A DNA stretch of 18,508 bases from Actinomycetes bacterium (GTDB taxonomy: Bacteria > Actinomycetota > Actinomycetes > Mycobacteriales > Mycobacteriaceae): positions 1 through 18,508 of the forward strand of contig JAHZJY010000047.1 of assembly GCA_022600695.1 (NCBI GenBank). The letters run 5' to 3'. Made by a program: the position numbers and the translations under genes. Below, piece by piece: positions 4,161 to 8,263 of the stretch. Below the pieces are notes generated by a model. The model was not told where the DNA came from. It searched no databases and saw nothing but the letters and a program-made list of their open reading frames with translations. Position 1 is the first letter of the stretch. Every line of letters begins with the position of its first letter.

Positions 4161-5825
4161 CTACCGTTCGGTCACCAGGCCGTCGTCCACCAGCCACGAA
4201 CGGTCCAACCGGACGTTCTGCAGCATTCGGCGGTCGTGGGTCACCAGCAGCAGCGCACCGTCGTAGCTTTCCAGGGCTTGTTCGAGTTGTGCGATGGCGG
4301 GCAGGTCGAGATGGTTCGTCGGCTCGTCGAGGACCAGAACGTTGGTGCCGCAGGCCTGCAGCAGCGCCAGACCGGCGCGGGTCCGCTCCCCGGGGGACAG
4401 TTCGTCGACCTCGCGTTCGACGTGATCGGCGCGCAAGCCGAACTTGGCCAGCAGGGTGCGGACGTCGGCGGTCGCCCAGGATGGCACCCTCCGTTCGAAG
4501 CGCTCGACAAGTCGGCCCGGTCCGGTGAAATCGGCTCGGGCCTGGTCGATCTCGCCGACGGCGACATTGGCCCCCATGCTGGAGCGGCCCTCATCGGGTT
4601 GCCGGCGACCGAGCAGCAGCCGCAACAGCGTCGACTTACCGGCGCCGTTGGGTCCGGTGATGCCGATCCGTTCGCCGGCATCGACCTGCACCGACACCGG
4701 GCCCAGGACGAAATCGCCCTGTCGCACCACGGCTTCGTCCAGTGTCGCGACCACCGAACTCGATCGCGGGGCGGTGCCGATGGTGAACGCCAGGGTCCAT
4801 TCCTTGCGGGGCTCGGCGACCTCCTCGAGGCGAGCGATCCGGCTCTCCATCTGGCGCACCTTCTGCGCCTGCTTCTCGCTGGACTCGGTGGCCGCGCGCC
4901 GCCGGATCTTGTCGTTGTCCGGGGATTTGCGCATCGCGTTGCGGACGCCCTGACTGGACCACTCCCGCTGGGTGCGGGCGCGGGCCATCAGGTCGGTCTT
5001 CTTCTCGGCGAACTCCTCGTATTGCTCGCGCCGATGCCGGCGGCCAACTTCACGCTCCTCCAGATAGCTGTCGTAGCCGCCGCCGAAAACGGTGGTGGTG
5101 TTCTGCGCCAGGTCCAGCTCCAGTACCCGGGTCACGCTGCGGGCCAGAAACTCCCGGTCGTGACTGACCAGCACCACACCACCCCGAAGTTCGCGGACGA
5201 AATCCTCCAGGCGGGTGAGTCCGTCCAGGTCGAGATCGTTCGTCGGCTCATCCAGCAGGGCGATGTCGAACCGGGACAGCATCAGGGCCGCCAGTCCGAC
5301 CCGCGCCGCCTGCCCGCCCGACAGTTCGGTCATCCGGGTCGACATCGGTTGCACCGCATCGGAGTTCAGACCGAGGTCGGCCAACACGGCGGGCAGCCGC
5401 TCCTCCAGGTCCGCAGCACCGGTGACAAGCCAGCGGTCCAGCGCCGCCGAGTAGACGTCAGCCGGATGCCCGTCCAACCGCCCCTCGTCCGGTTCTGCCA
5501 GGGCCGCGGCCGCGGTTTCCATGGCGCGGGTTGCCGCGGCGCATCCGGTCCGGCGAGCGATGTAGCCGGCGACGGTCTCGCCCGGAACCCGTTGGTGTTC
5601 CTGGGGCAGCCACCCGACGAACGCATCGGCGGGCGCCAGGCTCACCGTGCCCTCCAGGGGTTCGACGTCACCGGCCAGGATCCTCAGCAGGGTGCTCTTC
5701 CCGGCACCGTTGACACCGACGACGCCGACGACATCGCCCGGTGCCACGGTCAGGTCCACGCCCTCGAAGAGGGTGCGGTGGGCGAATCCGCCGGCCACAT
5801 TCTTCGCGACAAGGGTTGCGGTCAT
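4161..5825 (-). CDS. ABC-F family ATPase (duplicated ABC domains, no membrane domain)
   Basis: The predicted 554-residue soluble protein has two ATP-binding cassettes in one chain. Walker A motifs lie at 37-45 (GVNGAGKST) and 391-399 (GPNGAGKST), and signature motifs at 168-172 (LSGGQ) and 476-480 (LSPGE). The Walker B regions are LLDEPTNDLDL and VLDEPTNHLDL. The charged linker between the cassettes is rich in Arg, Lys and Glu, as expected of the P-site tRNA interaction motif region. No transmembrane segment is present. ABC-F proteins act on the ribosome as translation factors or antibiotic-resistance ribosome protectors; which applies here cannot be decided. The ATG at 5825 was chosen because the MTATLVAKNV start aligns with the family; an upstream extension to 5888 is unlike ABC-F proteins. 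It is divergent from the Cys-rich gene at 5928. Confidence 0.93.
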   Translation of the reverse strand: MTATLVAKNVAGGFAHRTLFEGVDLTVAPGDVVGVVGVNGAGKSTLLRILAGDVEPLEGTVSLAPADAFVGWLPQEHQRVPGETVAGYIARRTGCAAATRAMETAAAALAEPDEGRLDGHPADVYSAALDRWLVTGAADLEERLPAVLADLGLNSDAVQPMSTRMTELSGGQAARVGLAALMLSRFDIALLDEPTNDLDLDGLTRLEDFVRELRGGVVLVSHDREFLARSVTRVLELDLAQNTTTVFGGGYDSYLEEREVGRRHRREQYEEFAEKKTDLMARARTQREWSSQGVRNAMRKSPDNDKIRRRAATESSEKQAQKVRQMESRIARLEEVAEPRKEWTLAFTIGTAPRSSSVVATLDEAVVRQGDFVLGPVSVQVDAGERIGITGPNGAGKSTLLRLLLGRRQPDEGRSSMGANVAVGEIDQARADFTGPGRLVERFERRVPSWATADVRTLLAKFGLRADHVEREVDELSPGERTRAGLALLQACGTNVLVLDEPTNHLDLPAIAQLEQALESYDGALLLVTHDRRMLQNVRLDRSWLVDDGLVTER

Positions 5826-5927: not shown

Positions 5928-6368
5928 ATGCTGGCCAAATATCTGCTCGCGCCGCTGTCGGTCGCCACCACCGCCGGGGTCGGGGTGCTTGCGTCTCTCG
6001 CCACCGTCGGCAGCGCGATGGTCGCCGGGTCGATCGGCACCGCGGGCAGCGTGGCCGTCGCCGGTTCCATGGGGACCGTCGGTAGCGTCGCGGTCGCCGG
6101 GTCGATGGGCACCTTCTCCAGCGTTGCGGTCGCCGGGTCGATGGCGACCCTGGGCAGTGCCGGTGTCGCCGGCAGCGCCGTGACGGCGCTGTCATTCCTG
6201 ATGAGCGGATGTGCGGCCTGTTTGGCCTGCGTTTCCTGTCGGCGCTGCCGGGCCTGCGTGGCCTGCTCCCAGTGCGAGGACTGCATCGGCTGCGTCGGCT
6301 GCCACAACTGCTCGGGCCTGCGCAATGCAGTGGGGCTGCGCGACGTGCACCTGCCGGTGGCCGCCTGA
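5928..6368 (+). CDS. Unrecognised protein: GS-rich hexapeptide repeats plus a (Cys-x-x)12 array
   Basis: I cannot assign a function. The predicted 146-residue protein has three parts. A hydrophobic N-terminus (1-30) carries one Lys and one Tyr near the start and could be a signal or membrane anchor. Residues 32-90 are hexapeptide repeats alternating AGSMGT-like and VGSVAV-like units, almost free of charge. Residues 95-128 hold twelve Cys at exact three-residue spacing (95, 98, 101 up to 128), with Arg-rich and then acidic and His/Asn fillers. A short tail reads GLRNAVGLRDVHLPVAA. Third codon positions are strongly G/C in this frame, unlike the overlapping antisense frame, which supports coding. 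The period-three array could form a flat thiol face for metal or metalloid binding or a disulfide-stitched solenoid. It is divergent from the ABC-F gene and converges on arsC with ten bases between stops. The ATG at 5928 has only a weak ribosome site. Confidence 0.72.
   Translation: MLAKYLLAPLSVATTAGVGVLASLATVGSAMVAGSIGTAGSVAVAGSMGTVGSVAVAGSMGTFSSVAVAGSMATLGSAGVAGSAVTALSFLMSGCAACLACVSCRRCRACVACSQCEDCIGCVGCHNCSGLRNAVGLRDVHLPVAA
6021..6185 (+). repeat. 36-bp in-frame tandem repeat, four full copies plus a partial copy
   Basis: Units begin at 6021, 6057, 6093 and 6129, each opening with GTCGCCGG, and a partial fifth begins at 6165. Each unit encodes twelve residues, approximately VAGSMGTVGSVA, so copy-number change would keep the frame. 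Copies have diverged mainly in the second half, and the last is the most degenerate. Confidence 0.9.
6210..6311 (+). repeat. 9-bp periodic codon array encoding twelve Cys at every third residue
   Basis: A TGC or TGT codon recurs every nine bases, twelve times without a break, from the codon at 6210 to the codon at 6309. The two intervening codons differ nearly every time, so conservation is of cysteine spacing and not of DNA sequence. That argues for selection on the protein. Confidence 0.9.
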
Positions 6369-6379
6369 TCGGCGCAGGT
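6349..6379. terminator. Inverted repeat spanning both stop codons between the Cys-rich gene and arsC
   Basis: ACCTGC (6349-6354) and GCAGGT (6374-6379) form a perfect 6-bp stem around a 19-base GC-rich loop. The arms lie over the ends of the two convergent genes, so it could work as a shared bidirectional terminator. There is no T-run on either side. Confidence 0.38.
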
Positions 6380-6807
6380 CACGAGCCGCTCGGGGTGTCC
6401 GCGGAGGCGGGCCTCAGTTCGGCGATCAGGGCCTGGACCCGGGTCTTGATCTCGTCGCGGATCGGGCGAACCGCGTCGATCCCCTGGCCGGCCGGATCGT
6501 CGAGTTCCCAGTTGCGGTAGCTGATTCCGGGAAAGATCGGGCAGGCGTCACCGCAGCCCATTGTGATGACCACATCGGAGGTCTCGACGGCCTCACGGGT
6601 GAGTAGCTTCGGGCACTGATCAGAGATGTCGATGCCCACCTCGGCCATCGCCTCAACCGCGGCCGGATTGATGTGCGGGCCCGGATCGCTACCGGCGGAG
6701 CGAACCTCGACGGCCTTACCGCCCAACGACCGCAGGAAACCGGCGGCCATCTGGGAGCGGCCGGCATTGTGGATGCAGACGAACAAGACAGTGGGCCGGG
6801 AAGCCAT
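6379..6807 (-). CDS. arsC: Arsenate reductase, LMW protein-tyrosine-phosphatase type
   Basis: The predicted 142-residue cytoplasmic enzyme converts arsenate to arsenite for export. The phosphatase-type P-loop C-x5-R-S is visible as CIHNAGRS, giving nucleophilic Cys11 and Arg17. Further cysteines lie at 65, 85 and 89 (TMGCGDACPIFPG), and a DDPAGQGIDAVRPIRDEI block near 103-120 carries the DP acid-loop region. Relatives in Corynebacterium and mycobacteria use mycothiol as cosubstrate; that is family knowledge, and the extra Cys pair leaves room for a thioredoxin-type mechanism. The ATG at 6807 is preceded by AAAGG on the minus strand and follows the acr3 stop by eight bases. It is the last gene of the leftward arsR-acr3-arsC operon and converges on the Cys-rich gene. 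Confidence 0.93.
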   Translation of the reverse strand: MASRPTVLFVCIHNAGRSQMAAGFLRSLGGKAVEVRSAGSDPGPHINPAAVEAMAEVGIDISDQCPKLLTREAVETSDVVITMGCGDACPIFPGISYRNWELDDPAGQGIDAVRPIRDEIKTRVQALIAELRPASADTPSGS

Positions 6808-6815
6808 GCTGTGGA

Positions 6816-7898
6816 CTACCTTTCGCGAGCGGGGGCGGTAGCCGAAAATCGGCTGCGCAGGGCCAGCGAGACATACACCAAGCCGACCAGCACCGGCACT
6901 TCGATCAGCGGGCCGACGACCCCGGCCAGGGCCTGACCGGAGGCCGCACCGAAAGTCGCGATGGCCACCGCGATGGCCAACTCGAAATTGTTGCCCGCCG
7001 CGGTGAAGGCCAGCGTGGTGGTCCGCGGATAACCCAGGCCGAGTGAGGCCCCGAGCAGGAATCCGCCCCCCCACATCAGCGCGAAGTAGGCCAGCAGCGG
7101 CACCGCGATGCGGACCACGTCCCACGGCCGGTTCGTGATCTGATCACCCTGCAGCGCAAAGAGAATCACGATGGTGAACAGCAACCCGTACAGCGCCCAC
7201 GGGCCGACCCTGGGCAGGAACCGGTTCTCGTACCACTGGCGGCCCTTGGCCTTCTCCCCGAACCGGCGCGACAGGTAGCCGGCCAGCAACGGGATTCCCA
7301 GGAAGATCAGTACCGATTTGGCGATCTGCCACGGCGAGGTGTCGATGGAGGCCTGCTGCAGGCCCAGCCATCCGGGCAGCACCGACAGATAGAACCAGCC
7401 CAGTACGGCGAACATCACGACCTGGAACATCGAGTTCAACGCCACCAGCACCGCCGCGGCCTCGCGGTCTCCGCAGGCCAGATCGTTCCAGATGATCACC
7501 ATCGCGATGCAGCGCGCCAGGCCGACGATGATCAGCCCGGTGCGGTACTCCGGCAGATCCGGCAGGAACAGCCATGCCAGGGCGAACATCAGCGCCGGGC
7601 CGAGAACCCAGTTCAACACCAGCGAACTGACCAACAGTGCGCGGTCGCCGGTGACCGTGTCCAGGCGGTCGTAGCGCACCTTGGCCAGCACCGGATACAT
7701 CATGATCAACAGACCCAACGCGATCGGCAGCGAGATCCCGTCGACCTGAACCTTCTCCAGCGCCACGTTCAGCCCCGGCACCCAGCGGCCCAACAGCAGC
7801 CCGGCGGCCATCGCCAGTCCGATCCACGCCGGAAGCCACCGGTCCAGGGTGGACAGCTTGCCGGCTACCGGCACTTCGGGATCCAGCGTTCCGGTCAT
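6816..7898 (-). CDS. acr3: Arsenite efflux permease, ACR3 family
   Basis: The predicted 360-residue inner-membrane carrier of about ten transmembrane segments exports arsenite, driven by membrane potential. Two residues known to be essential in ACR3 proteins can be placed: Cys130 in GLARCIAMVIIWNDLACGD, and Glu306 in AGNNFELAIAVAIATFG. A second Cys at 142 lies in the same segment. Length and hydrophobic pattern match stand-alone ACR3, with no fused ArsC domain. Its ATG (7896-7898) overlaps the arsR stop in an ATGA arrangement, so translation is probably coupled; arsC follows after eight bases. Expression should follow ArsR control. Confidence 0.95.
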   Translation of the reverse strand: MTGTLDPEVPVAGKLSTLDRWLPAWIGLAMAAGLLLGRWVPGLNVALEKVQVDGISLPIALGLLIMMYPVLAKVRYDRLDTVTGDRALLVSSLVLNWVLGPALMFALAWLFLPDLPEYRTGLIIVGLARCIAMVIIWNDLACGDREAAAVLVALNSMFQVVMFAVLGWFYLSVLPGWLGLQQASIDTSPWQIAKSVLIFLGIPLLAGYLSRRFGEKAKGRQWYENRFLPRVGPWALYGLLFTIVILFALQGDQITNRPWDVVRIAVPLLAYFALMWGGGFLLGASLGLGYPRTTTLAFTAAGNNFELAIAVAIATFGAASGQALAGVVGPLIEVPVLVGLVYVSLALRSRFSATAPARER

Positions 7899-8263
7899 GT
7901 CGACACTCCCACTGCGGCAGTGGCATCGGTCCCGACCTTCAACAGATCCGACAGCGCTTCGATGGCCGCCGGGACCACCGCGTAGTACACCCAGGACGCC
8001 CGGCGCTGCGAGGTCAGCAGTCCCGCGTCACGCAGAACCTTGAGGTGATGGGACACCGTCGGCTGGGACACCTCGACGCCGACCAAGACATCGCATACGC
8101 ACGCCTCCCCGCCGGCATGGCTGGCGATGGAACTGAGCAATCGCAGCCGGACCGGATCCGACAGCGCCTTGAACCTCGACGCCATCTCAACGGCCGCCGC
8201 CGGGGTGATCGGCTCGGCGACCAACGGAGTCACCCGGCAGCCGTCCCGCTCTGGATTCGACAT
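7895..8263 (-). CDS. arsR: ArsR/SmtB family arsenite-responsive repressor
   Basis: The predicted 122-residue winged-helix repressor is the first gene of the ars operon. The core runs from FKALSDPVRLRLLSSIA (31-47) through the recognition helix region SQPTVSHHLKVLRDAGLL (66-83) to a beta wing SQRRASWVYYAV. A CVCD motif at 55-58 gives Cys55 and Cys57 at the place where E. coli-type ArsR binds arsenite. Cys9 in the N-terminal arm is a possible third ligand. On arsenite binding such proteins leave their operator and release acr3 and arsC. The ATG at 8263 lies beside the divergent region shared with pstS; the stop overlaps the acr3 start by four bases. Confidence 0.94.
   Translation of the reverse strand: MSNPERDGCRVTPLVAEPITPAAAVEMASRFKALSDPVRLRLLSSIASHAGGEACVCDVLVGVEVSQPTVSHHLKVLRDAGLLTSQRRASWVYYAVVPAAIEALSDLLKVGTDATAAVGVST

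Follow-up and report, generated by a model that had tools for sequence, protein, structure and literature searches.

What kind of protein carries a cysteine at every third residue, twelve times over, and what could so many thiols be for? The question is raised by a gene in the window, by which we mean the whole 18,508-nucleotide stretch of DNA analyzed here. An array of Cys with a period of three invites interpretation as a linear ladder or as a peptide precursor. We propose that this array is better read as the interior of a slender β-helix whose thiols would bind metal, and we put the probability of this explanation, taken as a whole, at roughly 0.45. The argument draws on the following features.

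5928..6368, plus strand: gene of the Cys-array protein (146 aa plus stop, ATG start), defined by its translation and coding by pN/pS
5958..6209, plus strand: seven 12-residue units (residues 11–94), which in the register of the later Cys read STGV, STSV five times, and STSM
6210..6317, plus strand: (Cys-x-x)12 array, three 12-residue units (residues 95–130) with Cys at all four putatively inward positions
6318..6353, plus strand: last 12-residue unit (residues 131–142), LRNAVGLRDVHL, in which the Cys register reads L, A, L, V
4161–5825, minus strand: gene with two ABC-transporter ATPase domains, on one flank of the Cys-array gene
6379–6807, minus strand: arsenate-reductase-like gene (ArsC-like, LMWPc), on the other flank
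6379–8263, opposite strand to the Cys-array gene and convergent with it: ars set of ArsC-like (LMWPc), ACR3, and ArsR genes

The seven-unit feature is based on the period of 12 in the family, on a register found in 81 of 81 members, and on the near absence of charge from that register.

Coding Status and Cysteine Spacing

Long antisense ORFs overlap the Cys-array gene, a codon-usage caller chose an antisense ORF in some relatives, and one antisense frame has a pN/pS of 0.34, all of which could be taken to mean that there is no protein gene at 5928–6368 and that the frame is either a chance one or the shadow of a gene on the other strand. Against this, the sense-frame pN/pS is 0.165 over 182 close pairs of relatives, with changes mostly at codon position 3, which speaks against a chance frame, and the three antisense frames contain stops over the last 330 nt in 32, 44, and 66 of 80 loci. 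The low ratio of the 0.34 antisense frame is itself expected, since that frame has its third codon position in common with the sense frame. The 5928–6368 frame is coding, and we find it scarcely credible that no protein gene is there. The ATG start of the window gene is common to its nearest relatives. Recoding through selenocysteine was rejected as a separate matter: a stop was flagged in seven rows, and in the four of these seven for which loci were read it is the terminal stop.

The translation bears out the twelve Cys that a preliminary description of this DNA had placed, with an unbroken period of three, at residues 95 to 128 (residues 95, 98, 101, 104, 107, 110, 113, 116, 119, 122, 125, and 128). 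In 20,000 shuffles of the whole protein the longest period-3 Cys run was 5, and in 20,000 shuffles of residues 87–146 alone it was 6, compared with the real run of 12. The description was also right that the preceding repeats are nearly free of charge, residues 35–88 being devoid of D, E, K, R, and H, and the GLRNAVG tail that it pointed out is present in the window protein and largely kept in relatives. At the DNA level, the gene repeats with a period of 36 bp (4.9 copies, 74% matches).

Distribution and Conservation of the Family

In Pfam and NCBIfam, no model scores above its cut-off for the window protein; its only Pfam match is the collagen-like family (PF01391), at 14.8 bits against a cut-off of 27.2, and the protein does not have Gly at every third residue. 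Run against 248 genomes of the genus, Mycobacterium taken broadly, a profile built from 71 sequences finds the family in 110, four of these carriers (G212, G228, G244, and G270) giving weak matches with E above 1e-14. In the genome to which the window belongs (2.8 Mb, 86% complete) it matches once. A scan of named genomes yielded 207 loci, the best 80 of which come from Mycobacterium/Mycolicibacterium, Pseudonocardia, Actinomycetospora, and MAGs, in keeping with the remark in the preliminary description that similar uncharacterized proteins occur in actinobacteria. In a scan of 396 genomes of the phylum, 28 gave matches at E ≤ 0.001. Clear ones come from two genomes of another class (1.5e-30 and 6.4e-28), whose arrays have 10 Cys by eye, with triplets 2 and 12 lacking Cys; many of the other matches cover the repeats only.

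All member counts below refer to 81 proteins, namely the window protein and the best 80 of the 207 loci. The array has 12 Cys in 71 of them, 11 in six, and 10 in four. Over a span from 60 residues before the array to 15 residues after it, 1021 Cys lie in register and 2 out of register; in the part of this span that precedes the array, all 63 Cys are in register. Homologues do keep the cysteine period, and these counts support the suggestion that the geometry of the thiols is under selection.

Several individual sequences deserve mention. Two MAGs titled Bifidobacterium breve (L060 and L096) have a family gene whose surroundings match those in mycobacterial contigs, and these are probably mislabeled or mixed assemblies. 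Five database relatives (P0010, P0037, P0038, P0044, and P0051) keep the repeats and seem to have the array in another frame, as if frame-shifted. In one clade (L035 and other members of its group), a GCTGACATGCTC motif is conserved directly before the proposed GTG start.

Gene Neighborhood

The window gene lies between the gene with two ABC-transporter ATPase domains, whose product we read as ABC-F-like, and the ars set. The adjoining ArsC-like, ACR3, and ArsR genes invite the reading that the Cys-array protein belongs with them in the response to arsenic, and by hand count ACR3 is somewhat commoner in carriers of the family (100 of 110) than in non-carriers (111 of 138; p = 0.03). The ars genes are, however, on the opposite strand and convergent, ACR3 occurs almost throughout the genus (211 of 248 genomes), and the ars neighbors are not common to relatives: gene neighbors vary by clade, with 25 context groups among 80 loci. 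We consequently rejected the arsenic link, which we hold to be extremely unlikely.

The two largest context groups comprise 24 and 19 of the 80 loci. In the first, an SDR gene adjoins the family gene in the loci read; in the second, which represents one clade (L031 and 18 others), the family gene stands directly downstream of sdhA-sdhB. Among the 80 loci we found no constant operon partner, and no metal-related gene is a constant neighbor, which counts against the explanation proposed here. Genomic context follows the family tree (15 changes against a minimum of 9 and a shuffled mean of 48.7, on a tree built from few columns and with many forks open). A mobile element was considered and rejected, there being no phage match and one plasmid match (Streptomyces, E 3e-4), which covers 44% of the query.

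Repeat Unit and Register

The preliminary description recognized hexapeptide repeats ahead of the array. Hexapeptides are indeed present, but the true unit is 12 residues long, two hexapeptides alternating within it, and the array continues this unit in register. Across the family, repeat identity at lags of 6, 12, and 18 residues is 0.43, 0.73, and 0.44. The strand center alternates between a Thr/Ser class and a Val/Ile/Ala class, this class being the same in 843 of 894 cases at lag 12, as against 55 of 954 at lag 6 and 61 of 823 at lag 18. Twelve residues is also the commonest gap between close members (62 of 185 gaps, from pairs at ≥75% identity that are not independent of one another). All 81 members have the hexapeptide Ser in phase with the first Cys, and 77 of them agree in the phase of Thr modulo 12; the other four form one clade. 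The filler residues between the array Cys recur with a period of four triplets (p = 0.0046, or 0.032 when lags 2–6 are taken together). As read from the sequences, the Cys array is a continuation of the 12-residue repeat in which positions 1, 4, 7, and 10 have turned to Cys.

These periodicities bear on the form that the chain could take. The preliminary description had proposed a left-handed threefold helix that would present every Cys on the same face. The strict period of three would suit a helix of this polyproline/polyglycine II-like type, bearing a Cys ladder. Such a helix predicts no 12-residue superperiod, whereas one is present in the repeats and in the array alike; moreover, the Cys register is common with that of the hexapeptides throughout the 81 members, and Gly is concentrated at two of the 12 positions and does not recur at every third residue. 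We regard a threefold helix as highly unlikely, and an inward-facing register within a 12-residue coil accounts better for the period of three.

A solenoid of another coil length, for example a left-handed hexapeptide helix with 18 residues per turn, would account for the hexapeptide unit, and one of 55 database relatives (P0024) has a precomputed PF00132 call; there is also a weak sequence match to LpxD (E 0.24). The low agreement of the strand-center class at lag 18 compared with lag 12, although an indirect measure taken from sequence only, argues against this geometry, and the window protein has no PF00132 match up to E 1. We judge a different coil length distinctly unlikely; one of 24 residues is conceivable.

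The distribution of charge distinguishes the Cys register from the other two. In the 66 residues before the array, counted in full and unfiltered, the Cys register has a single charged residue in 1777, compared with 51 in 1777 for one of the other registers and 68 in 1778 for the third; inside the array the Cys register has none in 972, and the other registers have 114 and 206. A register that shuns charge is expected if its positions face a core. Since this one register extends along the entire protein, nearly free of charge, we read the array as a solenoid interior. A point against this reading is that the outward columns of the repeats are mostly I, V, A, and G, which is unusual for a soluble protein. 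The question asked here, whether the Cys register is charge-free in the flanking repeats, can be put to other Cys-x-x proteins.

Proposed Architecture

In excerpts of PMC8038014, the beetle antifreeze protein is described as having 12-residue coils in which residues 2, 5, 8, and 11 point inward and two of these are Cys. To the 12-residue unit, the single period-3 register, the scarcity of charge in that register, and its conserved Cys, all established at the level of sequence, this in/out pattern offers a structural analogue, and from it, together with a moderate-confidence AF2 model, we consider a β-helix to be the probable architecture. The protein would form a slender helix of 11 coils. Each coil would comprise 12 residues, every third of them facing the interior, and from coil to coil the interior would read STGV, STSV five times, STSM, CCCC three times, and LALV. 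A Ser/Thr/Val-cored stalk would lead into three all-thiol coils, the core of which would be filled by the 12 thiols, and then into a hydrophobic capping coil; for the latter we propose residues 131–142, where the register reads L, A, L, and V in 75, 65, 50, and 65 of the 81 members. The coil type is already known, and the four-Cys-per-coil interior extending over three coils would be the new part. A literature search found no paper on the family and none on such an interior, a weak negative since most subscription journals lay outside the search.

With 71 sequences, AF2 placed strands of three residues every six residues over residues 13–87 and bridges at about every third residue in the array. 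The best model had a mean pLDDT of 68.7 (43 to 63 in the other four) and a pTM of 0.47, with block values of 73–75 for residues 21–60, 74–83 for residues 91–130, and 82–83 for residues 101–120. With 20 sequences, the model was poor and the repeats contained no strands. According to excerpts of PMC11795689, AF2 predicts solenoids for perfect repeats, even those of random sequence; given this bias, the case rests on the sequence pattern, with which the AF2 model is in agreement. Structure prediction, a check proposed in the preliminary description, did return a solenoid, but at moderate confidence and subject to the bias just described.

A Foldseek search with the AF2 model gave no solved structure at E ≤ 0.001, a sequence search of solved structures gave none at E ≤ 0.01, and beetle antifreeze proteins were absent from the matches of both. 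The best structural match of the model is a giant-virus protein of 138 aa named TNFR-Cys (BFVD A0A5B8IEK9, E 9.6e-4).

Candidate Thiol Chemistry

The kept thiols point to thiol chemistry, either as metal-thiolate or as disulfides, both of which the preliminary description had raised; size alone fails to explain 12 kept Cys, since Ser, Thr, and Val pack the same core in neighboring coils. In the first case, the protein would stay in the reducing cytosol and its core would hold metal as thiolate, bound by four Cys per coil in three stacked layers; storage, buffering, and redox chemistry are candidate uses. By eye, the members read have no signal peptide, and on this ground we assume a cytosolic location.

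In the second case, the Cys of the same β-helix would be structural: disulfides across the core would lock the rod, rich in Ala, Gly, and Val and self-associating, at one end. In favor of this, the excerpted text of PMC8038014 reports disulfides between residues 2 and 8 in every coil of the beetle proteins, and the outside of the repeats has almost no charge. Ten members have together lost 14 Cys, and none of these losses is accompanied by that of the opposite Cys in the coil, which, as far as sequences can tell, speaks against obligate Cys pairs. Six members have the odd number of 11 Cys, the lack of a signal peptide is likewise unfavorable to disulfides, and four Cys per coil would, as we infer, require two crossing bonds in one layer. 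We consider the disulfide rod unlikely.

It is the existence of 11-Cys members, the lack of co-loss of opposite Cys, and the missing signal peptide that lead us to prefer metal over disulfides. The metal-thiolate role of the 12-Cys core is nonetheless put forward tentatively, as a possibility somewhat short of an even chance. In its most specific form, the proposal would make the sealed core a metal-thiolate wire of three layers with four inward Cys each, borne on the Ser/Thr/Val stalk and closed by the hydrophobic coil, and in this form we hold it to be doubtful. If the array is indeed the inside of a solenoid, members of an unnamed family matched in 110 of the 248 genomes would bury as many as 12 thiols in a set arrangement.

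Peptide-Precursor Alternative

The protein might instead be the precursor of a thiazole/oxazole-type modified peptide. In this reading, which follows a proposal made for heterocycloanthracin, a YcaO enzyme whose gene lies elsewhere would cyclize the array. The passages of PMC2674419 drawn on here describe heterocycloanthracin precursors with Cys-Xaa-Xaa repeats, as in our array, and place them far from their maturation genes. By hand count, YcaO is commoner in carriers of the Cys-array family (25 of 110) than in non-carriers (5 of 138; p = 6e-6, a statistic that ignores the tree), two of the 30 matching genomes being below the cut-off of the YcaO family. Of the first 61 genomes, five belong to the genus and bear YcaO, and all five are carriers. 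The YcaO-bearing carriers that were read (L007, L009, L015, and L017) have one array type, CVAC.AC.ACTRC.

On the other hand, 85 of the 110 carriers have no YcaO match by hand count. Two of the carriers without YcaO are nearly or fully complete (G026, in one contig and 99% complete, and G007, 100% complete), and their arrays (L013 and L010) are of the same type as in the YcaO-bearing carriers. None of five YcaO regions read contains a Cys array, and in the one region scanned for both, YcaO stands with TfuA. We judge the co-occurrence of YcaO and the Cys-array family to be co-inheritance by kinship; maturation by YcaO as a general route is not supported, and we hold the precursor reading to be very unlikely.

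The mycobacterial YcaO loci have features of their own. At L113, L114, L116, and L117 (also L115), a YcaO gene (~392 aa) lies beside a gene of ~480 aa; by Pfam the L113 pair is YcaO and TfuA, and the second gene of L114 is TfuA. A frame of 25 to 28 aa lies near YcaO in two of the five regions (L114 and L117, found with a narrow pattern) and could be a precursor peptide. YcaO was matched up to 8 times in one genome.

Comparison with Known Systems

Among repeat proteins, the pentapeptide-repeat proteins MfpA and Qnr have a period of 5 and a four-sided coil in excerpts of PMC8145042, as against periods of 6/12 and 3 in the family described here. The left-handed β-helix of hexapeptide proteins (PF00132, LpxA/LpxD type) has in common with our proposal the hexapeptide unit and the solenoid form, but the superperiod here is 12 residues, not 18. 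The precursors of heterocycloanthracin (TOMM) share Cys-Xaa-Xaa repeats at the C-terminal end, as far as the excerpts of PMC2674419 go. In the Cys-array protein, by contrast, a long repeat domain takes the place of the short leader, the coding sequence continues past the array into a tail, and there is no general link to YcaO.

The beetle hyperactive antifreeze proteins (TmAFP/DhbAFP, TCTxSxNCxxAx) are alike in build, with a 12-residue coil, every third residue inward, and Cys and small residues inside in the excerpted text of PMC8038014, the inward pattern of the bacterial family being suggested by charge counts. We found no sequence relation between the two, and the family here is bacterial. 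Its Thr lie in the putatively inward Cys register instead of pointing outward, so that there is no Thr-x-Thr ice face, and its array places four Cys in each of just three coils.

Bacterial metallothioneins such as mycobacterial MymT are small and Cys-rich, and the Cys-array protein, for which metal binding is putative, resembles them in both respects. It differs from them in the strict three-residue spacing of its Cys and in their position at the end of what we propose to be a long repeat solenoid. If the core should prove to be a metal-thiolate wire within a β-helix, it would, to our knowledge, be unlike metallothioneins, Cys-lined helical bundles, and ferredoxins.
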